Part shown: one piece after another, positions 20,689 to 39,474 of the stretch | Layout: every line of letters starts with the position of its first letter | Position numbering within the stretch: position 1 is the stretch's first letter | Source of the DNA: a virus | Virus record (IMG/VR): IMGVR_UViG_3300026156_000232 | Span: 1 to 42,933 of that record | Strand: one strand, 5' to 3' | DNA length: 42,933 nucleotides | The notes under the pieces: model-generated | What the model saw: the letters and a program-made list of their open reading frames with translations, nothing else | Database searches by the model: none | Told to the model about the DNA's origin: nothing | Position numbers and translations under genes: made by a program

Positions 20689-20734
20689 GGAGACGAACTA
20701 TGAGCAGAGAAGAAATGAGAAAGTTGATGGAGGC
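20689..20734 (+). repeat. 5' module repeat, copy 1 (RBS + presequence)
   Basis: A 46-nt stretch covering ribosome binding site, start codon and the first 11 codons, nearly identical to copies at 21087-21132 and 21606-21651. The genes downstream of the three copies are unrelated. Confidence 0.85.
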
Positions 20735-21101
20735 TGTGAGCGGAAAGCCCGACCAACAGGCAATGTTACAAAAGTACGGTGTGGAATTTGGTGAGTACGT
20801 CACGAAGGAAGAGAAAGAGTGGGTCGTTATTGTGCTGGATCGAGAAATCGATTGGGGCTCCATTCAAGATGTAGATGCTGTTCTTTCAGAAGCAGACCCA
20901 CAGCAGAAAATGTATCAAAACTTCACTGCTATGGGAGACGATGTTCCTAACGCCATGAGTTTCAATATCCGATACTTTGATCGTATTGATCAGATTCTCC
21001 GACAGTCTGATACCGGTTATGACCTTGAGACCATCCTGACGGAATGGCCTGGTCCCGGAACCTACAGTGGCGACGAAGACGATTTCGGAGACGAACTATG
21101 A
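20700..21101 (+). CDS. Putative internal head protein with MSREEMRKLMEA presequence (1)
   Basis: A 133-residue protein. The first 13 residues (MSREEMRKLMEAV) form an amphipathic helix ending in LME|A, which matches the capsid-targeting peptides of T4 internal proteins cut by gp21 protease. The mature part would start at A12 and is acidic (DREIDWGSIQDVDAVLSEAD). No known domain. The last codons (GDEL) are encoded by the next copy of the 5' module, and the next ATG overlaps the stop in an ATGA junction. Preceded by a late octamer. Packaging is inferred from the motif, not seen. Confidence 0.7.
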   Translation: MSREEMRKLMEAVSGKPDQQAMLQKYGVEFGEYVTKEEKEWVVIVLDREIDWGSIQDVDAVLSEADPQQKMYQNFTAMGDDVPNAMSFNIRYFDRIDQILRQSDTGYDLETILTEWPGPGTYSGDEDDFGDEL

Positions 21102-21132
21102 GCAGAGAAGAAATGAGAAAGTTGATGGAGGC
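21087..21132 (+). repeat. 5' module repeat, copy 2
   Basis: Identical over the 46 nt to the copy at 20689. Here it also forms the 3' end of the preceding gene. Confidence 0.85.
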
Positions 21133-21529
21133 CGTCGGTGGTCCGAACAACTCGTTTACAGAAGACGCGGGCGGGCTCCTGTCTTATAAAGGATATCCGG
21201 TTTATGCCCTAGACGACGAGGGTTCAGAATCCTGGGCATATTTTGCATTCGCAGGAACTAAGGAGAACCTTCAAGACCTCAAAGCCAGCCTTAAGGGAGG
21301 AAAAACTAAGGCTAGCTGGGAAGAAGAACCGCCAGTCCGAACCTCAAGACCTTACGATCGTGGCAAGCTTCGATTGAGAGAAGTTGACTTTGAAGAAGGT
21401 GAGGATTTAACCGCCGTTCCTGTTGTAAAATCTTTCACACCATCGCAGCTCAACAACATAAGAGGCACCTTTGAGAAACTGCTAGATAAATGTGAAAAGA
21501 TGAATCCGCACGGAGATTTCAGTCTATAA
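21098..21529 (+). CDS. Putative internal head protein with MSREEMRKLMEA presequence (2)
   Basis: A 143-residue protein. The chosen ATG lies in the repeated 5' module with GGAGACGA as ribosome binding site; an in-frame ATG at 21044 would add 18 residues but lacks these signals. After LME|A the body is unrelated to copies 1 and 3. It contains a small alpha/beta unit (LLSYKGYPVYALDDEGSESW, then YFAFAGTKENLQDLKASLKG) and a C-terminal helix (SQLNNIRGTFEKLLDKCEK). No function recognised. Overlaps the upstream gene by 4 nt. Confidence 0.7.
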   Translation: MSREEMRKLMEAVGGPNNSFTEDAGGLLSYKGYPVYALDDEGSESWAYFAFAGTKENLQDLKASLKGGKTKASWEEEPPVRTSRPYDRGKLRLREVDFEEGEDLTAVPVVKSFTPSQLNNIRGTFEKLLDKCEKMNPHGDFSL

Positions 21530-21605
21530 TTTCAAATCCATCTTGACAAGACGATCTGATTCAAAAATCCGCCTTAATCGGAAAGTAAGGCATAATTCAA
21601 CTTTA

Positions 21606-21651
21606 GGAGACGAGCTATGAGCAGAGAAGAAATGAGAAAGCTGATGGAGGC
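21606..21651 (+). repeat. 5' module repeat, copy 3
   Basis: Differs from the other two copies at only two positions (GAGCTATG for GAACTATG and AAGCTG for AAGTTG). The 21530-21605 spacer before it holds a GCCTTA/TAAGGC inverted repeat and an isolated TTGACA without a matching -10. Confidence 0.8.
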
Positions 21652-22033
21652 GGTCGATACTACCGCTACGGCAAAAAAGGCCTCAGGTGCTGCTATGGTC
21701 GCATTCAAAGACATTATGAAGGAGGTTTTGCCGGAGGTTCGTGGTACGTTCTATAATGATAAGCAGACAACCAGTAGACGGCTGCGCGCATATCTCTCCC
21801 CTGGGAAATACGAAGGGACCTCCAATACTTCAAAGGCATTCCAACTCTTAATGAAGAATCTTAAAAACGAACAAACCCGAGATAGGTATCTTCGAAAAAT
21901 CTCCAACAGAATGAAGAAGCACGGGTATAAGGTAAAGAAGATCGAGTATCAGCAGCCATACAACGGCTACGTTCATTACGGTTCAAGAGCCGGCTATCCT
22001 TCTATTACAATTTGGATTGAACCAGAATACTGA
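21617..22033 (+). CDS. Putative internal head protein with MSREEMRKLMEA presequence (3)
   Basis: A 138-residue protein with the same first 12 residues, then a basic, helical body (AMVAFKDIMKEVLPEVRGTF, then YLRKISNRMKKHGYKVKKIE) and a Tyr/Gly-rich beta end (HYGSRAGYPSITIWIEPEY). The strong positive charge after the presequence would suit a DNA-associated protein inside the capsid. The YxVKKIE - ITIWIEP alternation looks like a small double-stranded or ssDNA-binding sandwich, but no family is recognised. Confidence 0.7.
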   Translation: MSREEMRKLMEAVDTTATAKKASGAAMVAFKDIMKEVLPEVRGTFYNDKQTTSRRLRAYLSPGKYEGTSNTSKAFQLLMKNLKNEQTRDRYLRKISNRMKKHGYKVKKIEYQQPYNGYVHYGSRAGYPSITIWIEPEY

Positions 22034-22049
22034 TCCATTCCATCTTGAT

Positions 22050-22078
22050 TTGACGCCTTCTAGGTAACCTGCTATTAT
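22050..22078 (+). promoter_or_regulatory. Sigma70-type promoter
   Basis: TTGACG (22050-22055), 17-nt spacer, TATTAT (22073-22078). It serves the gene at 22100 through the ribosome binding site TTAGGAGG. Confidence 0.75.
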
Positions 22079-22099
22079 AGTGGATACTTAGGAGGCGTT

Positions 22100-22345
22100 A
22101 TGCCATATATCGACAAAAAAAGACGATCTACACTATTAGAAAAGACTGTGCCTATCAATGCTGGTGAGTTAAACTTTCTAATCACTATCCTTGTAGATGA
22201 TTACATTAACTATCATGGAAAGAGTTACCATACGCTAAACGAAGCAATGGGGGTGCTTGAATGCGCCAAACAAGAGCTGTACAGGCGTATCGCAGCCCCT
22301 TATGAAGACGAAAAGATGAAGATAAACGGAGACGTGTACCAATGA
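22100..22345 (+). CDS. Conserved phage protein (DUF6899-like)
   Basis: An 81-residue protein starting MPYIDKKRR, with the pattern GELNFLITILVDDYINYHGK, LNEAMGVLECAKQELYRRI and APYEDEKMKINGDVY. From memory this is the small conserved phage family DUF6899, which has no assigned function. Length and the closing NGDVY fit. It has its own sigma70 promoter and a strong ribosome binding site, and overlaps the next gene by 4 nt (ATGA), so the two are one early operon. Confidence 0.7.
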   Translation: MPYIDKKRRSTLLEKTVPINAGELNFLITILVDDYINYHGKSYHTLNEAMGVLECAKQELYRRIAAPYEDEKMKINGDVYQ

Positions 22346-22791
22346 CAAAGTTCTACTATATTGCCGGACCAATGTCCGGAATTCCTCAATTTAATATTCC
22401 GGCGTTTGATGAAGCATCAAAGAACCTCAGAGCAGCGGGATATAAAATTATTTCGCCCGCCGAATTGGATGATCCTTCTACTCGAGAAATGGCATATAAC
22501 TCGCCCGACGGCGCGACCTTGAATGACCAGCATCCTAATGGGGAGTCTTGGGGAGATTTTTTGGCGAGAGATGTGAAGATTGTCGCCGACAAGGCGAACG
22601 GAATTATTGTTTTGCCAGACTGGGAGAAGTCGCGAGGCGCCCGATTAGAAATGATGGTTGCCCTACTTTGCGGACACGAACTTCTACATTACAACCCAGA
22701 CGCACCGAAATTTACTCGAGAAATTGATCCTTCTCAGGCTGCGCACATGGTGATACGAGAATTTATGGAGAATACGGCGTTACTGTTTTAG
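22342..22791 (+). CDS. DUF4406 / nucleoside 2-deoxyribosyltransferase-like protein
   Basis: A 149-residue protein with the opening YIAGPMSGIPQFNIPAFDEA, the hallmark of the DUF4406 family related to nucleoside 2-deoxyribosyltransferases. Further family features are SWGDFLARDVKIVADKANGI and VLPDWEKSRGARLEM, where the SRGAxLE glutamate corresponds to the catalytic region. The predicted role is transfer or hydrolysis of the deoxyribose-base bond, in nucleotide salvage or base modification; the substrate is unknown. The 30 C-terminal residues exceed the core. It is coupled to the upstream gene. Confidence 0.75.
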   Translation: MTKFYYIAGPMSGIPQFNIPAFDEASKNLRAAGYKIISPAELDDPSTREMAYNSPDGATLNDQHPNGESWGDFLARDVKIVADKANGIIVLPDWEKSRGARLEMMVALLCGHELLHYNPDAPKFTREIDPSQAAHMVIREFMENTALLF

Positions 22792-22798
22792 TCTTGAT

Positions 22799-22827
22799 TT
22801 GACTAATGAACAGATATCACGTATACT
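22799..22827 (+). promoter_or_regulatory. Sigma70-type promoter for the HTH gene
   Basis: TTGACT (22799-22804), 17-nt spacer, TATACT (22822-22827), then TTAAGGAGG before the ATG at 22855. Confidence 0.8.
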
Positions 22828-22854
22828 GTGATGACTTGACTTAAGGAGGTAACT

Positions 22855-23118
22855 ATGTCAAATACAGTAACTAAGAAGGAAGGTGTTCTTGAAGCCCTTC
22901 GCAACAGCGATCGCGGTCTAACCGCAGCACAGATCCAGGCCCGCTTTGGTGTTCGTAATGTTCGAGCAACGATTAGCGACCTGCGTTTTGATGGCTATGC
23001 CATTTATGCAAATCGCCACACCGACACGAAGGGTCGTGAAAAGACCTTTTATCGTCTAGGCACTCCTAGCCGTCGTGTTATCGCCGCCGGCTATCGCGCC
23101 ATGGCAATGGGCCTCTAA
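22855..23118 (+). CDS. Winged-helix DNA-binding protein
   Basis: An 87-residue protein with a helix-turn-helix unit: VLEALRNSDRGLTAAQIQAR is helix 1 and 2, and FGVRNVRATISDLRFDGYAI is the recognition helix and wing, followed by a beta hairpin (ANRHTDTKGREKTFYRLG). The pattern resembles small phage transcriptional regulators. It has its own sigma70 promoter, a strong ribosome binding site and GC-rich codons, so it is probably made early and in quantity. A GC-rich hairpin follows its stop. It is a candidate for binding one of the palindromes in this window. Confidence 0.75.
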   Translation: MSNTVTKKEGVLEALRNSDRGLTAAQIQARFGVRNVRATISDLRFDGYAIYANRHTDTKGREKTFYRLGTPSRRVIAAGYRAMAMGL

Positions 23119-23135
23119 GAGGCAAACTTCGCCCC

Positions 23136-23156
23136 GGGGGAGGCTTTGTATCCCCC
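23136..23156 (+). promoter_or_regulatory. GC-rich hairpin GGGGGA / TCCCCC
   Basis: A 6-bp stem with a 9-nt loop between the HTH gene and the Imm-like gene, not followed by a U-run. It is similar in composition to the hairpins at 15455 and 24779. Confidence 0.5.
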
Positions 23157-23174
23157 AGCCTTAAGGATTTTATT

Positions 23175-23384
23175 ATGGAAACTAACGAACTCGCAGCTCT
23201 TTGGAATTTGTTCACGCTCGTCGCACTCTATTTTGTGCCTGCGATGATTGCATCAATCCGAGAACATCACAATCGTGTTGCTATCTTCGTGTTGACTCTT
23301 CTCACCGGGTGGACAGCAATCGGTTGGGTCGCCGCGTTGGTCTGGTCCTTTACAGCAGTTAAGAAAGCACCTGCACAAGAATAA
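23175..23384 (+). CDS. imm: Superinfection immunity (Imm-type) membrane protein
   Basis: A 69-residue protein with two membrane segments, about residues 10-25 (FTLVALYFVPAMIASI) and 36-62 (AIFVLTLLTGWTAIGWVAAL), separated by a short charged loop (REHHNR). This is the layout and signature (YFVPAxIAxxRxHxN, then LTGWTxIGWVxAL) of the superinfection immunity family that includes T4 Imm. Imm proteins sit in the inner membrane and stop DNA entry of a second related phage. It follows the HTH gene and shares its transcript. The assignment is from the motif alone. Confidence 0.8.
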   Translation: METNELAALWNLFTLVALYFVPAMIASIREHHNRVAIFVLTLLTGWTAIGWVAALVWSFTAVKKAPAQE

Positions 23385-23422
23385 AATGATTGTTTGATTC
23401 TTGCATCGGGTACTAACCTGAT

Positions 23423-23430
23423 GATAAATA
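23423..23430 (+). promoter_or_regulatory. Late promoter octamer GATAAATA, leaderless arrangement
   Basis: GATAAATACTAGC directly precedes the ATG at 23436: only 5 nt separate octamer and start codon. The same layout as at 7419. Confidence 0.7.
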
Positions 23431-23435
23431 CTAGC

Positions 23436-24155
23436 ATGTCATTACCAAACCCCAAATGGTTAGCACTAGAAGGTGTAAGATTTGCATCGACTCTTGTTGA
23501 TTATTTGAAGATGGATATGAACTTGTTACCTAGAGGAGACGAACATCCAGTTCTTCTCTTACCTGGATTAGCAACAAATTCCACATCAACAACATTCATT
23601 AGAAGACGGTTGCGTAGATTAGGCTATCGTGCTCATGATTGGGACCTTGGATATAATGTTCGATTTGATGAAACCCGCGTACAAGGATTGAAGAGAAATT
23701 TAGATTACTGGCATGACTATTACGGTGAAGAAATTTCTATCATAGGACTAAGCCTCGGTGGAGTTTACGCAAGATTTCTTGCAAATTGGGCGCCAGAAAA
23801 AGTCCGGCAGATCATAACATTAGGATCACCATTCGCTGGAGAAGAACCCATTATTACATACGGTTCCTATCTTTATGATTTTCTAAATCGAGATCACAGA
23901 GCAAAGGATCTGTTAGAAAAATATGGAGGAATGTTTCGTGTTGATCCACCAGTGCCATCAACATCAATATATAGCAGGACTGATGGTGTTGTTCATTGGA
24001 AATATTCTGTACAAAAGGAAGGCCATGTTCGAGAGAATATAGAAATCGATAGTGGTCACATTAGTTTAGCATGTCATCCCAAGGTCATTGAAATAATATC
24101 CGACCGACTGTTAAACAGCAAAAACGATTGGAAACCTTATCATAGGAGGGTATAA
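23436..24155 (+). CDS. Alpha/beta hydrolase (lipase/esterase type)
   Basis: A 239-residue protein. HPVLLLPGL (37-45) forms the oxyanion strand, GLSLGG (104-109) is the nucleophile elbow with S106, and TDGVV with D183 and SGHISL with H208 complete a catalytic triad in the right order. The family cleaves ester bonds, often in lipids; the fine specificity cannot be read. The start at 23436 (MSLPNPKW) is preferred over an upstream in-frame ATG because the late octamer lies between them. It is coupled to the next, membrane-anchored gene (TAATG). Late expression suggests a role in virion entry or in lysis (lipid attack), which is inference. Confidence 0.8.
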   Translation: MSLPNPKWLALEGVRFASTLVDYLKMDMNLLPRGDEHPVLLLPGLATNSTSTTFIRRRLRRLGYRAHDWDLGYNVRFDETRVQGLKRNLDYWHDYYGEEISIIGLSLGGVYARFLANWAPEKVRQIITLGSPFAGEEPIITYGSYLYDFLNRDHRAKDLLEKYGGMFRVDPPVPSTSIYSRTDGVVHWKYSVQKEGHVRENIEIDSGHISLACHPKVIEIISDRLLNSKNDWKPYHRRV

Positions 24156-24775
24156 TGGAAATGGAAATGGTATACGGAGTTGGTGGTTTAATTTTATTCA
24201 TTTTGGCTGCCGGCGGTCTTTATTGGTTTAATAAGAAACATAAGAGAAAGACTACATACAATCTAAAAATGAGAGTTGGTAGTGATATTAATACAGTATT
24301 GCCACAATCGGTCACGCCAGGCATGGAAGTTATCGTGGCGTTTGATGAAATGCTACTAAAACATAGCGAAGACGGTTCGCCAATTGTTAAAAATTTCGAA
24401 GGCGGCAAGGAAATTAATCTATTAGATACATCGTCAAAGATTTCTCCTATTCTAACAGAAATGAACCAGGAAGAACTTCCAAGCGGCAGATATGAATGGA
24501 TCAGATTAAAAATTATTGCCGATCGTTGTTTTGTTCGCATAAACAACGAAGTGTTCCCAATGAAGATCCCCAGTGGCGAGCAGAGCGGACTAAAATTAGT
24601 CCGCGGATTCTTTGTGCATGGCATCGGGCGATCAGACTTCACAATTGATTTTAATGTCCGTAAAGGTATGACTCGCAAGTCAGATGGAACTTATATTCTT
24701 AAGCCAGCCCTTAAATTAATTGACAACACCGGGCGAGAAGAAGACGTTGATTTGCCTGAAGAACCAACAGAATAA
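24155..24775 (+). CDS. Membrane-anchored DUF4382-like protein
   Basis: A 206-residue protein. Residues 7-25 are a transmembrane segment (VGGLILFILAAGGLYWF) followed by a basic stop-transfer sequence (KKHKRK). The rest resembles DUF4382: EVIVAFDEMLLKHSEDGS, INLLDTSSKI, LPSGRYEWIRLKI, then PSGEQSGLKLVRGFFV and a final ILKPALKLI strand. DUF4382 domains are mostly found in bacterial lipoproteins as beta-sandwich surface domains of unknown ligand, so the gene may have come from a bacterial source. The ribosome binding site is AGGAGGG. It is coupled to the hydrolase, suggesting that the two act together at a membrane. Confidence 0.65.
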   Translation: MEMEMVYGVGGLILFILAAGGLYWFNKKHKRKTTYNLKMRVGSDINTVLPQSVTPGMEVIVAFDEMLLKHSEDGSPIVKNFEGGKEINLLDTSSKISPILTEMNQEELPSGRYEWIRLKIIADRCFVRINNEVFPMKIPSGEQSGLKLVRGFFVHGIGRSDFTIDFNVRKGMTRKSDGTYILKPALKLIDNTGREEDVDLPEEPTE

Positions 24776-24778
24776 AGG

Positions 24779-24805
24779 TATACGGGGAGGTCATCCTCCC
24801 CGTAT
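24779..24805 (+). promoter_or_regulatory. Hairpin TATACGGGGAGG / CCTCCCCGTATA
   Basis: A perfect 12-bp stem with the loop TCAT, between 24775 and the ATG at 24811. No U-run follows. It closely resembles the hairpin at 15455 (both contain GGGGAGG on the left arm). Because the next start codon is only 5 nt downstream, it could also hinder translation of that gene. Confidence 0.65.
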
Positions 24806-24810
24806 ATTAT

Positions 24811-25485
24811 ATGATGAATTACTGCATAGAAGTACCAGATGCTCCAAAGCAGATTTTTGAAACTGAAAAGCAGTATTATGCTTTCCTTTCTGCCTGGAAA
24901 AGTTTTCATAATAGCCCAGCAATAAAAGGCGAGTGGAAAAAAGTTGAAGGTAAGTCTTATCGGAACCCAGGAATTAAGTATAGTCATTTCATAAAGCAGA
25001 CGCCGCTGGATGCCGTTCACTATATATTGTATAACCTCATAAGAGGTAAACCAACCAAAAAAGGGTTTTATAATGATCCTAATCAACGCTTAAGGCTTAG
25101 GTTTTATGATCACCTAATAGGCAGACCAACAACACTGGATACATATGAACGCGCCTTCAAATCATTGCTTTACTATCTTAAAACAATAGAGAATAACATG
25201 GATTTAGAGTGGGCGGACGGCTATCCTCGATTAAGGGGTGTTGATTATAAGACCCCTTATGATTATGCATCTCGATCCCTTCTCATCCCTTTTGGAAACA
25301 CATTAACAAAAAAACACATGAAAGTTATTTGTTCCTTAGTATCTGAAGAAGCAACATTATTCAAAATAAGAGGTGTCTACTACCAGAATTGTAGTTGGAG
25401 TAGTTCTAACATCATTCATGGCTGGGGTATGCAGCCTAAATTTCAGAAGGATGTATTAAAAAATAAGATTCTTTGGAAGATTTAG
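24811..25485 (+). CDS. Hypothetical protein
   Basis: A 224-residue protein rich in Tyr, Lys and Trp, not recognised. The region FYDHLIGRPTTLDTYERAFK and DGYPRLRGVDYKTPYDYASR look like a compact helical domain; no catalytic signature is obvious. The start codon (ATGATG) follows the 24779 hairpin with no Shine-Dalgarno, unlike most genes here. Its last 4 nt overlap the end of the convergent protease gene. Confidence 0.65.
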   Translation: MMNYCIEVPDAPKQIFETEKQYYAFLSAWKSFHNSPAIKGEWKKVEGKSYRNPGIKYSHFIKQTPLDAVHYILYNLIRGKPTKKGFYNDPNQRLRLRFYDHLIGRPTTLDTYERAFKSLLYYLKTIENNMDLEWADGYPRLRGVDYKTPYDYASRSLLIPFGNTLTKKHMKVICSLVSEEATLFKIRGVYYQNCSWSSSNIIHGWGMQPKFQKDVLKNKILWKI

Positions 25486-26573
25486 TAGCCCCAGATTCCT
25501 TCAATATTAAGCTCTTGGAATACATATTGTATTGGGTTTAAGATAGTAACGGTATCACTGCCTGCGAACAATAGTCCTATGGCATCTCCATTCATGTTGA
25601 ATACAGTCGAACCACTATCTCCACCTGCGCTCATATTATCAGCAATGATTTGATTCTCAAACATTGCTACCTGCCCAGGACCAAACTCGACTTCAACCGT
25701 AACTCCTTCTGCTAGAATTTCTCCGGTGGTGTAGCCTGTTGTTCTACCGCTTTTCTGAACGCGATCGCCAACATCAATTTCAGCAAGATTGCCAGTAAGC
25801 TCTATTGGAAAGTTGAGCATAGCATTAGAAAATGCAATCGGTTCCACTTGAGGTGTTATGTTTTGAGATGTTGCCTGAACATCCATAGACGAATCTCGTC
25901 CGCCGCCCAGCAATTTACGAAGGAAGTCTATAATGGTGTTCCAAACACGCTTCCACCAAGGCAGTTTCTCTTCTGGTTCATCAACTACTGGCGGCTCTGG
26001 TTTTACCGGAGAAGCATCGTGTCCAACAAGAAGAGCAAGAGCAGCGTCAACCTTATTTTTGGCTGTGAATGAAATTACAGGAAATTCTGTAAGATGGGCT
26101 ACAGTATGCCTAGACCGTCCACCATCCATAGGTCCTGGTTGATAGATTGGGTCACCTAACAATGCTAGATTACTATTTGCCATAACGTGATTGTTTGATA
26201 GGATATGCGGTTTGCCGTCCTTCTTAACAAATAGCCCTAACGTGCCTGCTGTGATCTGAAAGTGGCCGCAGCTAACACCTGGCACCAATGGCCTATGATT
26301 AAATTGGTGTTCATTAAGTGCATGAATTTTACCCACCTCAATGACATCAACCTTAACCTTTGATTTATTATATTCTACTTCCTTAGGTAGTAGGTCTTCT
26401 GAGGATAGTTCTTTTTTATCAACCTTCTTCTTGACCAGAACGACAACAGCTTCTTCTTCTGTTGAGTGTCCGTCCTTCCACTTACGACCAGCGCCGACAC
26501 CGATAACATTCGGTTTCTTCATAAAATCTTTCGCTTGTTTGCGAGCTGCACGGACCAACATTTTCTTAGTCAT
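25482..26573 (-). CDS. Trypsin-fold serine protease with amphipathic insert
   Basis: A 363-residue protein. The chymotrypsin-type triad is complete: ILSNNHV with H129, VDAALA with D176, and SAGGDSGS with S320. It lacks a signal peptide. Residues 1-95 precede the protease domain (VIGVGAGRKW and a basic strand region). Between D and S lies an insert of about 60 residues: Pro-rich (PVKPEPPVVDEPEEK), then a Trp/Lys amphipathic helix (LPWWKRVWNTIIDFLRKLLG). A late octamer (26608-26601) and the ribosome binding site AGGAG precede the ATG. It is one of only three minus-strand genes and is convergent with 24811. Target unknown; late timing suggests virion processing, entry or lysis. Confidence 0.8.
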   Translation of the reverse strand: MTKKMLVRAARKQAKDFMKKPNVIGVGAGRKWKDGHSTEEEAVVVLVKKKVDKKELSSEDLLPKEVEYNKSKVKVDVIEVGKIHALNEHQFNHRPLVPGVSCGHFQITAGTLGLFVKKDGKPHILSNNHVMANSNLALLGDPIYQPGPMDGGRSRHTVAHLTEFPVISFTAKNKVDAALALLVGHDASPVKPEPPVVDEPEEKLPWWKRVWNTIIDFLRKLLGGGRDSSMDVQATSQNITPQVEPIAFSNAMLNFPIELTGNLAEIDVGDRVQKSGRTTGYTTGEILAEGVTVEVEFGPGQVAMFENQIIADNMSAGGDSGSTVFNMNGDAIGLLFAGSDTVTILNPIQYVFQELNIEGIWGY

Positions 26574-26600
26574 AAATACTCCTATTCGTAGATGCTCTTG

Positions 26601-26608
26601 TATTTATC
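26601..26608 (-). promoter_or_regulatory. Late promoter octamer GATAAATA (minus strand)
   Basis: Read on the minus strand the sequence is TAGATAAATACAAGAG, 27 nt before the protease ATG. It shows that the octamer follows gene orientation. Confidence 0.7.
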
Positions 26609-26627
26609 TATTATATATGCTAAACTT

Positions 26628-30033: not shown

Positions 30034-30617
30034 AAATCAACACAGATGTAGATATCGATCTCGGTCCTACTTCTCGAGATAAGTTATTAGATTCATTGCC
30101 GCATGTGATTGCAAGAATTGATAGAGAGGATGGATATGTCAAGCACAATACTGGTGTATATTTTCAAGACATTCCTTTTGATCCAGTAACTAATCTAGCT
30201 ACAATAGATCATAAATTAGCAGAAGAACTAGGATACCTTAAGATTGATCTTCTAAACAATAATGTGTATAAGGGTGTGAATAACGAGAAACATCTTATAC
30301 AGTTGGCAGAATCTGAGCCGCTGTGGCAAATGCTTTCCGACGCAGAAATTGTATCACAGTTATTTCATATAGGCCAACACGCAAGCCTTGTAACTCGGTT
30401 AGAGCCAAAATCAATTCCACAGTTGGCCATGATTCTAGCAATTATTCGACCAGGAAAGGCCCACCTACAACAAAGTTCGTGGGAAGATATTGAGAAAGAA
30501 GTTTGGATAAAACCTGCGGACGATACCTATTATTTTAAGAAGTCGCATGCCTATGCGTTCGCAACAGCTATTGTTGTTCAGATGAATCTGATGGTTGAAC
30601 GAGCGATGCATCTGTAA
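30030..30617 (+). CDS. DNA polymerase III alpha-like fragment protein
   Basis: A 195-residue protein conserved in T4-like phages. It starts with an acidic DVDIDLGPTSRD segment, then KHNTGVYFQDIP, LAEELGYLKIDLLN, and LAMILAIIRPGKAHL. The pattern DLGxxKxDxL ... ALxRPG is that of the fingers region of bacterial replicative polymerase alpha subunits (PolC/DnaE), but the catalytic palm acidic residues are absent. It ends YYFKKSHAYAFATAIVVQMN. It may have kept a DNA- or clamp-binding piece of a polymerase; the role is unknown. Its last 50 nt overlap the end of the convergent gene. Confidence 0.6.
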   Translation: MKINTDVDIDLGPTSRDKLLDSLPHVIARIDREDGYVKHNTGVYFQDIPFDPVTNLATIDHKLAEELGYLKIDLLNNNVYKGVNNEKHLIQLAESEPLWQMLSDAEIVSQLFHIGQHASLVTRLEPKSIPQLAMILAIIRPGKAHLQQSSWEDIEKEVWIKPADDTYYFKKSHAYAFATAIVVQMNLMVERAMHL

Positions 30618-31431
30618 GTACGGACTTTCTAAACTCGCTATAATAGGCATCTTTCACGAACAAACATTGTGAATCAGTCCACACCTCTGTGTCTTCTTGT
30701 ATGGAACCAAGGTTGTGAATGTTAGAAACGATTTCAAAATTGTTTAATGTTGGGTTGAATAGTCTAGACAAGATTGCAAATGCCGCTCCGTCGGGCGCAT
30801 TTTTATTAATTCGTTGTGCAAGATATTTAGCTAGAGGATTTTTTTGATATCCCCTAATGCTCTCAAGATTGTTGCCTTCTTGTAAAAATTCTTGAAACTT
30901 CTGAAAACCTTCCTGAAGATCATATATGGTGGTTTCTCCGCTGGCATCGAATCCTACAATACGACCAATCATCTCATTAACTACTTCGCCAACTTCGTCA
31001 GAGTATAATCCTAATTCCTTTTCAATATAAGGAAAGCTATACCAGACATCGCTTCCGTCGCACACGCCCATTTTGAAGCTGTCAGGGAGAATGACTGCAT
31101 ATACGCCAGCGCGAGTGCTGCCATAGGTCCTCGCGGTTTCAAAGGAAGTTGTGCAGATGAAGCTATGTGATCGTTTTGGAAAAGCTTTCCAGGTTGGTAG
31201 TTCGCTCATCAAAATTGTATATTCGTTCGAGGTGTTAGCAGATGCTCGGCCTTGAAGGGTGGGGTCTGCCAACATCACATGGCTATCTGGACTAGAGCGA
31301 AACATTCCTCTATAGACCGCCGGCGTGTCATAGCGTTTAAAATAAGTTAAAAACCGTTCACGAGCAATCTGAAGGGCTTCATCAGAGGCAAGTTCAGACT
31401 TGTGATTGCCACGAATCTCGTCTAATCGCAT
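30568..31431 (-). CDS. Hypothetical protein, possible ADP-ribosyltransferase fold
   Basis: A 287-residue protein. VYRGMF (R41), FICTTSFETARTYGS (about 91-105) and YAVILPDSFKMGVC recall the R ... STS part of mono-ADP-ribosyltransferases such as T4 Alt, which also has YRS and VSTS. The closing ExE motif is not evident, so the assignment is weak. The N-terminus MRLDEIRG is a short presequence-like helix but lacks a cleavage match. It is the second gene of a late minus-strand operon (4 nt after 31436) and overlaps the convergent 30030 gene by 50 nt. Confidence 0.5.
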   Translation of the reverse strand: MRLDEIRGNHKSELASDEALQIARERFLTYFKRYDTPAVYRGMFRSSPDSHVMLADPTLQGRASANTSNEYTILMSELPTWKAFPKRSHSFICTTSFETARTYGSTRAGVYAVILPDSFKMGVCDGSDVWYSFPYIEKELGLYSDEVGEVVNEMIGRIVGFDASGETTIYDLQEGFQKFQEFLQEGNNLESIRGYQKNPLAKYLAQRINKNAPDGAAFAILSRLFNPTLNNFEIVSNIHNLGSIQEDTEVWTDSQCLFVKDAYYSEFRKSVLTDASLVQPSDSSEQQ

Positions 31432-33861: not shown

Positions 33862-35254
33862 AGAATTTAATGAAGATATTGAAGATCTATTTGTGCAATT
33901 TCTTTACAGCGATGCTGAGACTTTTGTTCGTGTAAAGAATATTTTGGACCCATCATTTTTCGATGATGTTGATAACAGAAAGATTGTGAAGTTTATGATG
34001 GACTACACAACCGATCATTCGTTTCTTCCGACGAATGAACAGATGAAGGCCATAACAGGCAAGGAAGTCGAGAAGATTACTGATATTAATGACGAGCATT
34101 CAACCTGGTTCATGAAAGAGTTCGAGCGTTTTTGTCAGCAAAAGGCTGCAAAGCAAGCCGTATATGAATCTCTGGATTTGATTCAGAAGGACCAGTTAGG
34201 TGAGGTGGTCGAAAAGATTAAGAGGGCTGCTGAGCTAGGGATTGTGCGTGATCTTGGTATTGACTATTTCCTTAATCCTGGCGACAGGCTTAAAGAAATG
34301 CGAGATAAGAGCACAATGGTATCTACTGGATGGAAAACTATTGATGCAAAATTGTATGGTGGAATTGAACGAGGGACGCTGACTATTTGGGCTGGACAGT
34401 CAGGAGCAGGTAAGAGCCTGTTCTTACAGAACCAAGCATTAAACTGGGCAGAGCTAGGTTTGAATGTTGTTTACATTAGTCTCGAGCTTAGTGAAAAGTT
34501 ATGTGCAATGAGATTAGATGCAATGACATCAGGTTACAGCACCAAGGAGATTATGAAGAATATCGATGATGTCGATATGAGAGTTCGAGCATATCATAAG
34601 AAGTATGGTAACGGATCAGTACAGATTAAGCAGTTGCCAAACGGGTGTACAGCAAACGATATCAAGGCATATATTAAAGAATATGAAATTCAATCTCAGA
34701 GAAAGGTCGATGCGGTATTAGTTGACTACCTTGACCTTTGTTCTCCGATGAACAGAAGAGTTGATCCGGGCAATCTTTTCGTAAAAGACAAGTATGTATC
34801 GGAAGAGTTGAGAAACATCGGCGTTGATCTGGGAGTGATTATGGTAACGGCGTCCCAGCTTAATCGAGGTTCTCACGAAGAGATTGAGTTCGATCACAGC
34901 CATATTGCTGGCGGCATCTCGAAAATTAACACAGCAGATAATGTTATTGGCATCTTCACAACTATCTCAATGAAAGAAGGCGGCAGATATCAAGTCCAAT
35001 TTATGAAAACGAGATCTTCGGCAGGTGTCGGCAGCAAGGTTGATCTTAAATTCGATGTTCGCACACTACGAATTAAAGATCTTGAAGATGGTGATGAAGA
35101 TGCTTCTTCGGCAGCAGCCAATAATCTACTTAACACCATTCAAAAGAAGAATACAAAAACTGAAAATGATAAACAACCGACTAAGTTAGACAGTGAAAAT
35201 CCTCTGAGTCAGATTAGAGCATTAAGAAATATTGTGAAGAAAGGTAACATTTAA
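33851..35254 (+). CDS. 41: Replicative DNA helicase (gp41, DnaB family)
   Basis: A 467-residue ring helicase of the primosome. The N-terminal helical domain (1-135) is followed by the RecA-like core: STGWKTIDAKLYGGIERGTL, Walker A GQSGAGKS (182-189), the H1a region VVYISLELSE, Walker B VDAVLVDYLDL near 290, and H3 VMVTASQLNR with the sensor glutamine. The closing MKTRSSAGVG carries the arginine-finger region. The disordered C-terminus (TEN...KPTKL) is typical. It starts inside the primase gene, so the two are translationally coupled. Confidence 0.93.
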   Translation: MDIKEFNEDIEDLFVQFLYSDAETFVRVKNILDPSFFDDVDNRKIVKFMMDYTTDHSFLPTNEQMKAITGKEVEKITDINDEHSTWFMKEFERFCQQKAAKQAVYESLDLIQKDQLGEVVEKIKRAAELGIVRDLGIDYFLNPGDRLKEMRDKSTMVSTGWKTIDAKLYGGIERGTLTIWAGQSGAGKSLFLQNQALNWAELGLNVVYISLELSEKLCAMRLDAMTSGYSTKEIMKNIDDVDMRVRAYHKKYGNGSVQIKQLPNGCTANDIKAYIKEYEIQSQRKVDAVLVDYLDLCSPMNRRVDPGNLFVKDKYVSEELRNIGVDLGVIMVTASQLNRGSHEEIEFDHSHIAGGISKINTADNVIGIFTTISMKEGGRYQVQFMKTRSSAGVGSKVDLKFDVRTLRIKDLEDGDEDASSAAANNLLNTIQKKNTKTENDKQPTKLDSENPLSQIRALRNIVKKGNI

Positions 35255-35295
35255 GATTTTATTCTAAGCGTTGATCTTCGTGATTTTCCAATCGG

Positions 35296-35324
35296 TCTTT
35301 AGCCAAATGAACATGGTCTAAAGA
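35296..35324. repeat. Imperfect inverted repeat downstream of helicase
   Basis: TCTTTAGCCA and TGGTCTAAAGA pair with one bulged T around an 8-nt loop. No U-run follows. It is in the 118-nt gap before the next late unit; the rest of that gap shows only the octamer at 35336. Confidence 0.4.
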
Positions 35325-35335
35325 TAGAATATATT

Positions 35336-35343
35336 GATAAATA
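35336..35343 (+). promoter_or_regulatory. Late promoter octamer GATAAATA
   Basis: Located 29 nt before the GTG at 35373. It is the only candidate promoter for the long, gapless gene array reaching to about 38152, and probably beyond. Confidence 0.65.
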
Positions 35344-35372
35344 AGATTATACGGAAAATCGTGAGGATTAAC

Positions 35373-35651
35373 GTGAATAAAGATAAAATCAAACTGCATC
35401 AATCATCTCGATCTATATTTGAGGAGCTTAATCGCGCCATCCCGAATAAGAGTAAAGAACATGTGCTCGAATCAAGAGGACATCATATCATTTCATCTGC
35501 AATCAACTTTCTACAGGTATTGACAGAGAATTATTCGGAAGAAGAAGCTGATCAGATTATGAGGCGCTTTCTTAGCGCAATTAAAGGCGGCGACCCCGAA
35601 AGATTTGTAAGGGTTGTTCGTAAACTTCGAGAAACGCAAGGGGATGAATAA
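35373..35651 (+). CDS. Hypothetical protein, GTG start
   Basis: A 92-residue helical protein (MNKDKIKLHQSSRSIFEELN, then ISSAINFLQVLTENYSEEEA). The GTG at 35373 has GTGAGG upstream and lies after the late octamer; the TTG at 35334 would fall on the promoter. EADQIMRRFLSAIKGGDPER resembles a small helical bundle. Function unknown. It is separated from the lipoprotein gene by no bases. Confidence 0.65.
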   Translation: MNKDKIKLHQSSRSIFEELNRAIPNKSKEHVLESRGHHIISSAINFLQVLTENYSEEEADQIMRRFLSAIKGGDPERFVRVVRKLRETQGDE

Positions 35652-36026
35652 ATGAAGATTTTCCTTGCTATCCTAGTTACCTTTGCTCTATTACTCGCGA
35701 CCGGTTGTGAGCCTCGAAAAGAAGAGATCAATAAAAAATTCGATCGCTCTGGTGAGCCCGGCGTGGTTACGATTTACACATACGATTCTCAACGTGAGTT
35801 AGATGCAGCATTCCGTGAAATACACAATATTGCTCGAGGCGATGATGTAGACTCGCGATATGGTTTTGCTAGATGGCACGAATGGCGAGACCCCGAAGGC
35901 AATCTGGTAGAAGTCGAACGAGAATGTGAGGTTCATATCGTTAAACCCGAACATGTAGACGACGAAGCTACGCTAACTTTAGGGCACGAACTATTACATT
36001 GTTTATATGGAAGCTATCATGAATGA
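35652..36026 (+). CDS. Lipoprotein with HELLH motif (putative zinc metallopeptidase)
   Basis: A 124-residue protein. Residues 1-18 form a signal peptide (KIFLAILVTFALLLATG) ending at lipobox cysteine C19, so the mature protein would be a membrane-anchored lipoprotein. The C-terminus carries HELLH (112-116) in TLGHELLHCLYGSYHE, with H123 as a possible third zinc ligand, the layout of minimal zincin metallopeptidases. It could help degrade the cell envelope during lysis or act on superinfecting phage; both are guesses. The next gene starts inside its last codons. Confidence 0.7.
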   Translation: MKIFLAILVTFALLLATGCEPRKEEINKKFDRSGEPGVVTIYTYDSQRELDAAFREIHNIARGDDVDSRYGFARWHEWRDPEGNLVEVERECEVHIVKPEHVDDEATLTLGHELLHCLYGSYHE

Positions 36027-36276
36027 GATGAGAAAGCTAATGGAGGCTACTGATTATTCGCCAGAAGGCGACATCGTTGCATCTGCTGGTGAATTTATCG
36101 TTGTAGAAGAACACGGAATGATTCATATTATTGACGGAGAGCAGGTTGTAAGACTCTCTATGCAAAAACCAGAATGGGAAGAGCTAACACATAACGCCTA
36201 TCGTAAAGGATTTGACGAAGGTTATGCGGAAGGACACGAAGCCGCAGACACCTCTTGGCAAGACAGAATAGAATGA
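36019..36276 (+). CDS. Putative internal head protein with MNEMRKLMEA presequence (A)
   Basis: An 85-residue protein beginning MNEMRKLMEATDYSPEGD. LME|A matches the gp21-type cleavage rule; the mature part is acidic with a helical end (AYRKGFDEGYAEGHEAADTS). The start at 36019 is chosen over 36007 because it coincides with the shared 5' module and with GGAAG 5 nt upstream. It overlaps the lipoprotein stop by 8 nt and the next gene by 4 nt. No known domain. Confidence 0.7.
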   Translation: MNEMRKLMEATDYSPEGDIVASAGEFIVVEEHGMIHIIDGEQVVRLSMQKPEWEELTHNAYRKGFDEGYAEGHEAADTSWQDRIE

Positions 36277-36557
36277 GACTACTAGAGATACAAAGACAAA
36301 TTAGAAAACGCCGCAAGTTTCGCGACGGCGACACCGTTGTCGAGGTGAAGCTGGTTAATCCCGGTGATGAGCAACAAGAGTTTCTGAAAGTCTATGTATT
36401 TGAGAATGGCGAGCGAGTTGCCAAGGGGCTATACAAGCAATGGAACAAGGATGGCCGCTGGGAACCGTTGAGTATCAACTCGAAAGAGTTTACAAAAAGA
36501 AAGCGAATGCAAGAGATTATTGAACAGTTTGCGCGAGAAGCAGGATTTGTATTATGA
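36273..36557 (+). CDS. Hypothetical basic protein
   Basis: A 94-residue protein starting MRLLEIQRQIRKRRKFRDGD in an ATGA junction with the preceding gene. The middle looks like a small beta unit (VVEVKLVNPGDEQQEFLKVY) and the end is a helix (RMQEIIEQFAREAGFVL). The basic start could bind DNA or be a targeting peptide without a cleavage site. Function unknown. Confidence 0.65.
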   Translation: MRLLEIQRQIRKRRKFRDGDTVVEVKLVNPGDEQQEFLKVYVFENGERVAKGLYKQWNKDGRWEPLSINSKEFTKRKRMQEIIEQFAREAGFVL

Positions 36558-37525
36558 AACTAAACGAAGCATCCACACTATCAGCACTCGGAGCGACAAA
36601 ACAAGATGTGGCGAAGATCCACCAGGGTGAGATCAACATTCCTCATGACATGGAGTATACTCCGGTAACGACAAGACGCGAAGCAAGAGCATACCTTCGG
36701 CAAGGCCACCTAATTCTAGGTAAGGCTGCTGACAATTCTTTCGCGAGCATCATGATGCAGAATCGAGACCTCCGCTATTCGAGCGGGAGGACCGAGACTA
36801 GTTACCGAGTTACGATTGACGGGGAAAGCGCGATAACATTCTCCCTCAAGGATGCGCTGTCAATGTTGCCAGGCAGAGGCTGGACGTTCTATAGAAGCGT
36901 CAAAGCCCTTGACACGCATTTCGGAGGCAGCTTCTCCGATAGCGAATGGGACGATGACATCGAGCATATAGAAAAGATGACCCAGAGAATCGAACAACTT
37001 TACGGTCCGCGCCTGAAGCAAGAAGCTCGAAAATATATGAAAGAGATTAAACGAGCAATTTCAAGTGCAGTCACAGGTGACAAGAGAACCTCGAGCAACT
37101 GGCTAAGTCGGGGGACCGCTGCAAAAAATCTTGAACAGCTTAAGGGTGGTTATGATAAACTAGAGGCCATTGCAAAAAGCGACCGACCATTTTCAACAAT
37201 GGTAGCTGCAACTCGGGTAGCCTCGGACCGCCGCGGACTGTCTGGGCTTGTGGGGAGCGAAGTAGGCACCAACCACAGCGATTGGGGGTCGGCATATCAT
37301 ATTCCTGGGCAAGCCGGAGAATGGGCGAAGAAAACTCCGGCGGCGATGGCGAAGATTACTCGCTTCGCATTTTCTAAGCTCAGAGAAATCCGTGACGACG
37401 CCTTCAGCAGCTATCATAAGGAGAAGGCTCCAATCGAAGCCGAACCATATCAGCTACGAGTTCGCGAAGCATACGAAAGGTTTAGAGAGTCGGGCGAAGT
37501 CCGTTCGATTACAAAGGAGGACTAA
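36554..37525 (+). CDS. Hypothetical protein with LNE|A start
   Basis: A 323-residue protein. The N-terminus MKLNEASTLSALG contains LNE followed by A, a minimal prohead-protease site. The body is Arg/Ser-rich: TTRREARAYLRQGHLILG, a helical stretch IEHIEKMTQRIEQLYG, and FSSYHKEKAPIEAEPYQLRV near the end. An ADP-ribosyltransferase-like segment is faintly suggested by YRSVKALDTHFGGSFSD, but no motif set is complete. It overlaps the previous stop (ATGA) and the next ATG by 1 nt. Confidence 0.6.
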   Translation: MKLNEASTLSALGATKQDVAKIHQGEINIPHDMEYTPVTTRREARAYLRQGHLILGKAADNSFASIMMQNRDLRYSSGRTETSYRVTIDGESAITFSLKDALSMLPGRGWTFYRSVKALDTHFGGSFSDSEWDDDIEHIEKMTQRIEQLYGPRLKQEARKYMKEIKRAISSAVTGDKRTSSNWLSRGTAAKNLEQLKGGYDKLEAIAKSDRPFSTMVAATRVASDRRGLSGLVGSEVGTNHSDWGSAYHIPGQAGEWAKKTPAAMAKITRFAFSKLREIRDDAFSSYHKEKAPIEAEPYQLRVREAYERFRESGEVRSITKED

Positions 37526-37800
37526 TGCTAGAATCAATTCTAATCGCAATAGGATTTTTCCTATTAGGTATTTTACTATTCCCTATGCTGATGTTCCTTC
37601 GCGCTCGCCGCGATGGCAGCTGGGATGATAGCAACATGCTAAACATGTATCGTGTCATCGCCCATCTTACGGTACGCCCAGGTGACTTTGGTAAGATGTT
37701 TTATGAGGATGGTCGCAGACCGTTTTGGTATATTAACGAAGATGAATTTTCAGAGGTTGTAGACAGCAGCCATCAACAGAAGGAACAAGAACATGAATGA
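37525..37800 (+). CDS. Small membrane protein
   Basis: A 91-residue protein. Residues 4-26 are a transmembrane helix (SILIAIGFFLLGILLFPMLM) followed by FLRARRDG, so the C-terminus is probably cytoplasmic. The soluble part (LNMYRVIAHLTVRPGDFGKM, then FYEDGRRPFWYINEDEFSEV) recalls, from memory, a small conserved phage membrane protein of unknown function. It is embedded between proteins with the presequence and overlaps the next gene by 8 nt. Confidence 0.65.
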   Translation: MLESILIAIGFFLLGILLFPMLMFLRARRDGSWDDSNMLNMYRVIAHLTVRPGDFGKMFYEDGRRPFWYINEDEFSEVVDSSHQQKEQEHE

Positions 37801-38152
37801 GATGAGAAAGCTAATGGAGGCTGTCGATGCGACCGATCTCGAAGATGAATTAGATAATCTTAAGAGAAGATTTGCAGAGATTCTAAGTGAGTTGAAGGTA
37901 AAGCATCCAGAAGATGACGCGGAAACAATGTTTAGCCACGAGATGGAGATGTTTCAATCAGATGTACACGATTATCTAGACAACTCCGATTTTTTTGAAG
38001 ACGACGACGATGATGACTGGCGAACAGGCGCCGGAAACCCTCGCTTCATGGATGACGACGAAGACGAAGACGAAGACTGGGACGACGAAGACGAATACGA
38101 AGAAGGCCGCGATTCGGCAATTAACTCTATTATCGGAAAATCAAGGCGTTAA
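37793..38152 (+). CDS. Putative internal head protein with MNEMRKLMEA presequence (B), poly-acidic tail
   Basis: A 119-residue protein starting MNEMRKLMEAVDATDLEDE. Residues about 12-62 form a helical domain (LEDELDNLKRRFAEILSELK, then MFSHEMEMFQSDVHDYL) that is paralogous to the 38260 protein. The tail is extremely acidic (about 25 Asp/Glu within residues 64-105) and could mimic DNA or bind basic proteins. After LME|A cleavage it would be an acidic internal protein. It starts within the stop region of the preceding gene. Confidence 0.7.
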   Translation: MNEMRKLMEAVDATDLEDELDNLKRRFAEILSELKVKHPEDDAETMFSHEMEMFQSDVHDYLDNSDFFEDDDDDDWRTGAGNPRFMDDDEDEDEDWDDEDEYEEGRDSAINSIIGKSRR

Positions 38153-38156
38153 GAAC

Positions 38157-38240
38157 AAACTCGCCCGTGTCTGTATTACATTTGGTTTAAATGCAGAGTA
38201 TGATTCCTGCACGGTAAACGCAAAGGGCACGGGCGAGTTT
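38157..38240 (+). other. Long-stemmed intergenic RNA structure candidate
   Basis: AAACTCGCCCGTG (38157-38169) pairs perfectly with CACGGGCGAGTTT (38228-38240). Inside the 58-nt loop, GTTTA/TAAAC (38185-38189, 38215-38219) and TGCAG/CTGCA (38192-38196, 38207-38211) add a second nested stem. The right arm is followed by TTAATT, giving only a short U-run. It may be a terminator-like, processed or regulatory RNA. It does not fit a tRNA. Confidence 0.6.
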
Positions 38241-38283
38241 TAATTATTGGAGTAATGTTATGAATGAGATGAGAAAGCTAATG
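38238..38283 (+). repeat. 5' module repeat of the MNEMRKLME genes, copy at 38260
   Basis: TTTTAATTAxTGGAGTAAT, start codon and the first 8 codons are shared with 38512-38557. The coding part (ATGAATGAGATGAGAAAGC) is also identical at 36019 and 37793. Confidence 0.8.
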
Positions 38284-38517
38284 GAGATGTTCGAAGACGG
38301 CCTTGATTCGGAAGCTTCGGACATAGACCTCGACGATAAACTAGACACATTAGCAGAGCAGTTTGCGCATATACTCATGCAAAAACAACAAGATGACGCC
38401 ACGGGCGAACCAGATGAGATGGCGGCATATTACGATGCAGAAACGGCATTCGATTATGAGCTAGAGATGTTTCAGAATGAGGTGAAGAAGCATCTAGAAA
38501 AGCTTGGATTTTTTTAA
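38260..38517 (+). CDS. Putative internal head protein, MNEMRKLME family (C)
   Basis: An 85-residue paralogue of the 37793 protein: LDDKLDTLAEQFAHILMQKQ and AETAFDYELEMFQNEVKKHL align with its helical domain, but the acidic tail is missing and the gene stops at KLGFF. The start MNEMRKLMEMFEDGLD has M, not A, after LME, so this copy may not be cut there. TGGAG is the ribosome binding site. Tandem duplication is the simplest origin. Confidence 0.7.
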   Translation: MNEMRKLMEMFEDGLDSEASDIDLDDKLDTLAEQFAHILMQKQQDDATGEPDEMAAYYDAETAFDYELEMFQNEVKKHLEKLGFF

Positions 38518-38557
38518 TTACTGGAGTAATAAGATGAATGAGATGAGAAAGCTAATG
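38512..38557 (+). repeat. 5' module repeat, copy at 38534
   Basis: Second copy of the leader + TGGAGTAAT + start + presequence block, differing from 38238-38283 at about four positions. Confidence 0.8.
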
Positions 38558-38713
38558 TCGTTGATGGAAGGTGTCGACCTTGCCGATGTTCCTCAGCAAA
38601 GGCAAAGGCAAGATGCTCTAGACGACCAGCTACACGATTTGATTTATGTCGCAAATAAGTTTGGTATGTATGATGCGGCAGATTATTTGAAAAAGCTATT
38701 AGGAAACAGATAA
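38534..38713 (+). CDS. Putative internal head protein, MNEMRKLM family (D)
   Basis: A 59-residue protein starting MNEMRKLMSLMEGVDLADV, so the cleavage-type site is shifted to LME|G at residue 12. The mature part would be only about 47 residues, helical (ALDDQLHDLIYVANKFGMYD). The ATG at 38534 is preferred because of the shared ribosome binding site TGGAG; its stop overlaps the next ATG by 1 nt. Unrelated in its body to the neighbours. Confidence 0.65.
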   Translation: MNEMRKLMSLMEGVDLADVPQQRQRQDALDDQLHDLIYVANKFGMYDAADYLKKLLGNR

Positions 38714-39474
38714 TGAACGAAATGCGTAAGCTAATGGAAAGTATTAAGCCGCTTTTTGAAGAATGGGAAGATCGTGTTAAGGCTGCGCTAGCATTTTTGG
38801 ACGGTGAGATCGAAAACGCGATTGAATACGAAACCAACGATGATGATATGGGATGGGACGACGAAGACGATGATGAGTATGGTGATGACAGCATTCTAGT
38901 ACCTGCCCTTCGCGATATTCGTGCCCGTGTCGCAGCAGGAGAAGTTGCCAACGAAGAAGACATCGAAGACATTAACATCGATGTATACGAAGCTACAATG
39001 GGTTCAGGATCGCATTACGGCGATACGGATTTGGCAGACCATATCGCTTTTACTCTTCGAGACATTCTAGGCATTATAGACGAAGAAGACGAGTATTCTA
39101 GTCTAGAAGAAGCCACCAAACCTGATCTTGAGGATGAGCTGCGCGGAGCGTTTAAAGCTGCCGGCCTACCATTTGAATACTACTCAGTATCAAAAACTAA
39201 GACTGGGTTTACGTTGACATTCGGTGGCGGAATGATGCGCTACGCAATGCCGTCGGACAGAAAGCTTGTTAGACTCGACCAAGAACTGAGAAATCAGTTC
39301 GGCGATCTTTACCGCGACGTGTCTGTAGAAGTGTTTAATAAAAGAAGCAGGACAGGGACTTGGACGAAACTGTATCCGCCATTGAATCTGGACGGAAACG
39401 AGAGACCTAAGATGACCAAGCTAAGAATTCGATTCACGCCCGATTTGATAAACCGATACCGACCGCACATGTAA
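38713..39474 (+). CDS. Putative internal head protein, MNEMRKLME family (E)
   Basis: A 253-residue protein. MNEMRKLMESIKPLFEEW contains LME|S at 9. A poly-acidic stretch (residues about 42-60, NDDDMGWDDEDDDEYGDD) recalls protein B. A second site, LEE|A in SSLEEATK (about 134), would release a C-terminal domain (FKAAGLPFEYYSVSKTKTGF, then basic strands). At DNA level the start codons differ by synonymous changes from the other copies, so this is an older member of the family. Function unknown. Confidence 0.7.
   Translation: MNEMRKLMESIKPLFEEWEDRVKAALAFLDGEIENAIEYETNDDDMGWDDEDDDEYGDDSILVPALRDIRARVAAGEVANEEDIEDINIDVYEATMGSGSHYGDTDLADHIAFTLRDILGIIDEEDEYSSLEEATKPDLEDELRGAFKAAGLPFEYYSVSKTKTGFTLTFGGGMMRYAMPSDRKLVRLDQELRNQFGDLYRDVSVEVFNKRSRTGTWTKLYPPLNLDGNERPKMTKLRIRFTPDLINRYRPHM

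Follow-up and report, generated by a model that had tools for sequence, protein, structure and literature searches.

In bacteriophage T4, the internal proteins IPI, IPII and IPIII and the Alt protein carry a capsid targeting sequence (CTS), according to the part of PMC9026906 that draws on Mullaney and Black (1996). The cleavage rule of the prohead protease gp21, its (L/I)xE motif and the CTS experiments are described in the same article (PMC9026906). In the T-even phages, the polymorphic internal-protein genes combine a conserved CTS with highly diverse mature proteins, as Repoila et al. (1994) are summarized in passages of PMC3012670 and PMC9026906. Here, a short N-terminal peptide, called the leader below, was analysed. 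It is shared by eight predicted proteins of a 42,933-base virus record (IMGVR_UViG_3300026156_000232, positions 1-42,933; this whole stretch is the window) and recurs in other viral genomes. The leader is very likely a propeptide of the T4 internal-protein type, which would target proteins to the capsid and be removed by a gp21-type protease.

As in T4, an N-terminal peptide of ~7-19 amino acids (aa) ending in (L/I)xE precedes unrelated mature parts, and a scaffold and a gp21 protease are encoded in the same kind of phage; IPII and IPIII of T4 begin MKTYQEFIAE/A. Unlike in T4, the leader reads MNEMRKLM-E-A-V-xx-I-x-E and has a second LxE in most relatives. T4 has three internal proteins and Alt, whereas eight copies were found in one 43-kb fragment here and eight MNDMRKL proteins lie within 9 kb of contig G026. 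Leader DNA has also been copied recently between genes, unlike in T4. Reviews describe the T-even internal proteins as diverse, basic and anti-restriction; the bodies found here span 59-860 aa, and related leaders precede enzyme-like domains. Processed N-termini are known from gp53 and gp54 of phage SPN3US and from the ejection proteins of phiKZ (PMC5694885). SPN3US gp53 and gp54 resemble the leader proteins in having an identical propeptide (MANFVKSKLARESVE), possible multiple cleavage sites and a glutamate at P1. The SPN3US and phiKZ proteases differ in recognizing A-x-E or S/A-x-E, with several propeptides longer than 100 residues, whereas the phages considered here are T4-like and probably use (L/I)xE. 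In the literature searched, "capsid targeting sequence" was found paired with "jumbo phage" for SPN3US only, and reports elsewhere are possible. A conserved CTS on diverse T-even bodies was thus known; the different and longer leader, its far greater numbers, the recent copying of its DNA and the wider range of bodies are new.

The leader in the window and in other viral genomes

The eight open reading frames (ORFs) of the original prediction are all present with the N-termini described (Table 1). Five begin MNEMRKLM(E) and three MSREEMRKLME. As had been stated, the residue after LME is A in the first five genes, then M (38260), G (38534, after LMSLME) and S (38713); a short putative N-terminal propeptide with (L/I)xE before A, S or G was found in seven of the eight. 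The longer starts given by the ORF finder (21044, 36007 and 38504) are less favoured, and Shine-Dalgarno-like sequences back the starts used here. Codons 1-8 agree at 24/24 nt among the three MSREEM genes and likewise among all MNEM genes except 38713, which matches the other four at 20/24 nt. Over codons 13-33, the leader genes share 11-23 identities out of 63, which is chance level. Since the leader DNA is identical but the bodies are at chance level by codon 13, the leader was recently copied within the window genome as a block of ~24-33 nt, sometimes with its ribosome-binding site. The bodies had been called mostly unrelated. This holds for all pairs but one: 37793 and 38260 are paralogous (39% over 64 aa, E 9e-10), and the others lack convincing similarity. 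A domain scan of the eight bodies gave no convincing known domain (38534 was included in the scan of 44 leader proteins described below). The hydrophobic moment of the leader is high; it exceeded that of shuffled sequences significantly only in the 16-aa consensus form (0.005), not in the short leaders. The T4-type late promoter TATAAATA was matched once in the window against 2.5 expected matches, so promoters give no support.

The leader was searched for in IMG/VR with patterns in which any codon was allowed. The degenerate 27-base MNEMRKLME pattern matched 36 stretches against ~0.007 expected by our own estimate, and the MNDMRKL(M/I)E pattern matched 29. All viral matches inspected were in frame at plausible gene starts, a few of them with open sequence upstream of the ATG. 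After related bodies were collapsed, ~40 non-redundant unrelated bodies of 59-860 aa remained behind the leader; one putative propeptide on unrelated mature parts was found in relatives as well as in the window. The pattern fixed residues 1-9, so their conservation is unusable as evidence, and left the sequence from residue 10 on unconstrained. Between genomes, every synonymous position of the leader varies, which argues for selection at the level of the peptide. The leader forms a single transferable module: its protein sequence is fixed, its codons vary between genomes, and the ~40 bodies behind it are unrelated. Residue 10 is A, T, S or M in 37 of 39 leaders. In 26/39 leaders, residues 12-19 hold another [LIVF]xE; for the three segments that follow, the counts are 1, 7 and 4 of 39. 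The usual leader is M-N-E/D-M-R-K-L-M-E-A/T-V/I-x-x-I/L-x-E, longer than originally described; in most MNEMRKLM leaders of relatives, the second [IL]xE stands ~7 residues past LME, near residues 14-16. The form MNEMRKLMEAVEKINE is a candidate capsid-targeting sequence.

The MSREEM pattern had no match in IMG/VR and this variant was seen only in the window. The 20-aa leader gave no tblastn match in INPHARED, a search that is insensitive with so short a query. Five matches in GTDB contigs (L253-L257), from Peptoniphilus-like and other genomes, were rejected: all are one conserved spurious ORF of 24 codons that runs antisense to a ribosome-binding site. Such a chance ORF calls for caution in pattern searches. 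Searches of 44 leader proteins with Pfam, PHROGs and PADLOC yielded DUF7448 as the single solid Pfam domain, unnamed PHROGs here and there, and zero defence families. Stretches of 50-140 aa in several MNEMRKLM bodies recur in the product of the gene immediately upstream of terminase. That protein begins MKSFRKHLSE or MRLSNIFE in other phages and MHEMRTLMES in G016. The long MNEMRKLM proteins L002, L012, L017, L027 and L029 (383-860 aa) have common C-terminal parts and shuffled segments of 50-100 aa, and TATTTATAC is found just upstream of L002, L027 and L029.

Protease, predicted cleavage sites and virion proteins in relatives

The window is part of a large ("giant") T4-like phage. It encodes tail sheath, tail tube, terminase, gp32-like, UvsX-like, UvsW-like, primase and gp41-like helicase proteins, some of them named by comparison with the annotation of phage PA5oct (Arenbergviridae). 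Of the annotated relatives, PA5oct stands closest (terminase 59%), and the window runs collinear with it; PA5oct also encodes Peptidase_S77 and has MRLDEI/MKIKDI-type starts on virion proteins. Megablast of positions 20001-42933 against INPHARED gave zero matches. No Peptidase_S77 (gp21) was found in the window, which is uninformative because the head module lies beyond the fragment. The protease is encoded on five leader-bearing contigs, G005 (340 kb), G016, G025 (328 kb), G026 and G029, as well as in PA5oct and Atu_ph07. On G026, genes for portal, gp67/68-like, gp21, gp22-like and gp23-like proteins, named by position and similarity to PA5oct, stand beside the leader proteins.

If this protease cuts (L/I)xE as in T4, its shredded substrate gp22 is expected to be rich in such sites. 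The gp22-like scaffold was the top protein for [LI]xE[ASG] density in 4/4 genomes tested (P values: G005 4e-9, PA5oct 4e-7, G026 6e-8, Atu_ph07 3e-15), and it is missing from the list of PA5oct virion proteins detected by mass spectrometry (MS). This suggests that the protease of the leader-bearing group uses (L/I)xE sites.

Leaders of other sequence point the same way. The gene at 40325 encodes a DUF6267 protein, and 61 of 64 distinct N-termini of its homologues carry a leader of 9-45 residues. [LIVF]xE occurs in 60/61 of these leaders (shuffles: mean 26, maximum 41), with L or I at P3 in 57/60 and A or S at P1' in 41/60. The glutamate is placed 3-7 residues ahead of the conserved domain. The leaders are otherwise diverse, and many resemble the T4 MKTYQEFIAE (e.g. 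MKSLTNYLTEA, MKFTEYLTEA). G011 encodes a fusion of the 39480 and 40325 homologues; its junction reads SLNE-STVLRE-ATVHLEHLED, keeps two (L/I)xE sites and falls exactly at the position of 40325's own leader.

In the window, LxE followed by A, S, G or M within the first 22 residues was found in 14/59 proteins, where residue shuffles gave 2.1. With the eight left out, the count was 6/51 against 1.5 expected, a level reached in 6/2000 shuffles. The shorter motifs noted at 39480, 40325, 41527, 36554, 8011 and 18165 are real. Homologues back those at 40325, 41527, 39480 and 8011; for 36554 the homologue is weak, and for 18165 none was found. A second leader type, M[KR]LxEI.. (39480, 40325), shares both the (L/I)xE rule and the gene islands with the first.

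The GenBank record of PA5oct flags virion proteins detected by ESI-MS/MS. The island that follows its helicase gene, syntenic with 35-42 kb of the window, encodes mostly MS-detected virion proteins. Leaders were counted in PA5oct with a pattern (pattern A) suggested by G001/G003 and settled when the PA5oct list was already known: 7/9 proteins with such leaders were MS-detected, against 86/436 (Fisher P 4e-4; 0/4000 length-matched permutations reached this level), an enrichment that alone is only suggestive. No MNEMRKLM-type leader was seen among the PA5oct N-termini listed. In Atu_ph07, 29/46 proteins of CDS 31-76 were detected in virions (PMC6102473). These CDS were placed at 24083-59704 by counting annotated CDS. 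The corresponding part of the GenBank record does not mark MS detection gene by gene, so the published boundaries of the cluster were used. T4-type leaders start 11/50 proteins of this virion-rich island, against 19/882 elsewhere (P 9e-8).

Proposed capsid targeting and its alternatives

A capsid-targeting propeptide cut by a gp21-like protease had been proposed for the eight proteins. The proposal gained independent support from the protease and scaffold signature in relatives, the DUF6267 leaders, the fusion sites and the virion-rich islands, and as a class the interpretation is well supported; it needs amending in that the cut may be at the second [IL]xE. The short amphipathic peptide would bind a core of gp22/gp67/gp68-like scaffold proteins and thereby bring the protein behind it into the prohead. 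A gp21-type prohead protease would then cut after (L/I)xE, a step with indirect support, and free the mature protein; the cut would fall at LME (residues 7-9) and/or at the second [IL]xE near residues 14-16. The freed proteins would be packed with the DNA and injected. We infer packaging, cleavage and injection for the eight proteins of the window.

Alternatively, the leader may be an assembly tag that docks proteins on the scaffold or on another part of the virion (neck, tail or outer shell), with no removal or injection. Several related virion-located proteins without leader or LxE (PA5oct 153120, 126689) agree with docking, and so do the modules that leader bodies share with the protein upstream of terminase. 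However, what the divergent DUF6267 leaders conserve best is a glutamate with L or I two positions earlier, and LxE is kept at the internal junction of the G011 fusion. Both fit cleavage better, the second being hard to explain by targeting alone, and a pure docking tag is considered unlikely. The N-terminus might also be a remnant of repeated duplications, without targeting role, behind which the rest diverged. 37793 and 38260 are true paralogues, and the identical leader DNA in the window indicates recent copying. Yet similarity stops sharply, and selection must act on a peptide that stays the same, in different codons, before ~40 unrelated bodies across many genomes, which makes plain paralogy very improbable. 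An expression element acting as DNA or RNA (a translation-start cassette) is hardly credible: the Shine-Dalgarno-like GGAGACGA(A/G)CT precedes the MSREEM genes (3/3) and GGAGTAAT two MNEM genes, but the synonymous positions vary as described and little of the upstream sequence is shared.

Several points weigh against capsid targeting with cleavage. The PA5oct enrichment depends on the regular expression used (P 0.064 in a stricter form, P 0.11 in a T4-derived form), and the PA5oct MS list contains metabolic enzymes and is not purely one of virion components. The PA5oct homologue of 39480 is present in virions and starts exactly at the body, with no leader. In Atu_ph07, neighbours within the same island and tandem paralogues resembling ADP-ribosyltransferases (ART), with M(K/R)WxQLTE starts, are not independent counts. 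The window itself is without head genes. Some cyanophage DUF6267 members are leaderless, which indicates that the leader is detachable. Among the eight proteins, 38260 is the only one with M after LME.

Putative cargo, other features of the window and implications

Table 1. Genes of the window with leaders or candidate leader-type starts
Position	Strand	N-terminus	Length	Remarks
20700..21101	+	MSREEMRKLME/A (20700-20732)	133 aa	
21098..21529	+	MSREEMRKLME/A	143 aa	codons 1-11 33/33 nt same as 20700
21617..22033	+	MSREEMRKLME/A	138 aa	32/33 nt same as 20700
36019..36276	+	MNEMRKLME/A	85 aa	
37793..38152	+	MNEMRKLME/A	119 aa	body paralogous to 38260
38260..38517	+	MNEMRKLME/M	85 aa	comparable N-terminus in L004
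38534..38713	+	MNEMRKLMSLME/G	59 aa	comparable body in L004 behind MNEMRRLMEAV
38713..39474	+	MNEMRKLME/S	253 aa	
39480..40328	+	MRAYEILNE/G		LGSxGK..SGDID; Pol-beta nucleotidyltransferase-like by motif only
40325..41530	+	MKIRELLTE/S		DUF6267 (E 9e-89); KxDG motif and predicted fold resemble RNA ligases
41527..42087	+	...DLSE/SR		L(S/C)E/SR conserved in G001, G005 and G011 homologues
36554..37525	+	MKLNE/A		candidate; weak support
36273..36557	+	MRLLEIQ-type		candidate; G011 homologue begins MRLVEIQ
8011..8625	+	LQE/S		virion structural protein homologue; PA5oct homologue MS-detected, without LxE
8625..10964	+	MNDIRKWRKIVDE/A		directly upstream of terminase; PA5oct counterpart MS-detected
768..1079	+	MKVTEILKE		candidate
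16613..17194	+	MKIEEIF-type		candidate; GNAT acetyltransferase
18165..18791	+	LME/S		candidate; homologue not found
30568..31431	-	MRLDEIRG-type		R-S-E ADP-ribosyltransferase signature (YRG, SFICT, EVW)

In an alignment of 56 DUF6267 sequences, K56-W57-D58-G59, E373-G374 and K385 are invariant. These KWDG (KxDG), EG and K elements are presumably motifs I, IV and V of the covalent nucleotidyltransferase/RNA ligase superfamily. The predicted DUF6267 model had a pLDDT of 87, and most structural matches with Z of at least 5 were RNA or DNA ligases (best Z 7.9, rmsd 3.8, 180 residues). Since a Z below 8 does not settle the fold, the ligase-like assignment rests on the motifs. Foldseek with this model gave no match at E 0.001, and DUF6267 had no convincing counterpart among PDB sequences. 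Motifs and model together suggest that DUF6267 is a widespread viral family of covalent nucleotidyltransferases. Speculatively, a packaged ligase and the nucleotidyltransferase-like product of 39480 could repair RNA damaged by host defences. PA5oct 150524-151864 contains TEKIDGYYL and is possibly another KxDG ligase-like protein; it adjoins the virion island and was not MS-detected.

The protein encoded at 30568-31431 aligns with the tandem proteins of Atu_ph07 and keeps YRG, SxS-type and E motifs. Y40-R41-G42, R87, S90 and E249 are invariant among 11 aligned sequences, and we take these motifs to be the R-S-E signature of ADP-ribosyltransferases. As to the ART fold of 30568-31431, a single-sequence model was unusable (pLDDT 34) and no PDB sequence matched; no relatives of this protein were found in IMG/VR. 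Atu_ph07 39484-50592 (L164) encodes a run of ~ten tandem proteins with the R-S-E signature and MRWEQLTE-type starts. In G001 (L140; 34114-35136 and 35474-35953) and in Atu_ph07 (303788-304783 and 290373-290885), LYHVTH, LYHGS, LYHIT or VYHGS comes after a leader-type start; these sequences resemble another ADP-ribosyl-transfer or KptA-like motif. In G001, proteins with the second leader type include a zeta-toxin-like kinase, a GNAT acetyltransferase and a 5'-nucleotidase; a GNAT protein is also encoded in the window. Some of the related cargo (ART-like, RNA-ligase-like, zeta-toxin-like and GNAT) looks host-directed, and a role in host takeover, part of the original prediction, is plausible for some of these neighbours and relatives. 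Elsewhere in the window, 25482-26573 (- strand; 363 aa) has NNHVMANSN and GDSGS motifs, resembles a trypsin-like serine protease by eye and has a homologue in G011.

A wider proposal, which we regard as possible rather than probable, is that the leader serves as a micro-cassette (~24-33 nt): new ORFs before which it is copied would be packaged and injected. Arsenals of this kind would be large and open-ended and could be listed from sequence. They would include ADP-ribosyltransferases and RNA-repair enzymes, namely the RNA-ligase-like protein and the nucleotidyltransferase-like one, which G011 encodes as a fusion with predicted protease sites at the junction.

Should the leader indeed target proteins to the capsid, those that giant T4-like phages package and inject, mostly ORFans, would be predictable from a short N-terminal rule and a cleavage motif. 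This would give a direct route to the takeover and anti-defence proteins of the first minute of infection. Genes would be recruited into the virion simply, by copying a leader of ~10 codons, and the widespread viral family DUF6267 would be a capsid-packaged ligase-like enzyme, a claim that can be tested.

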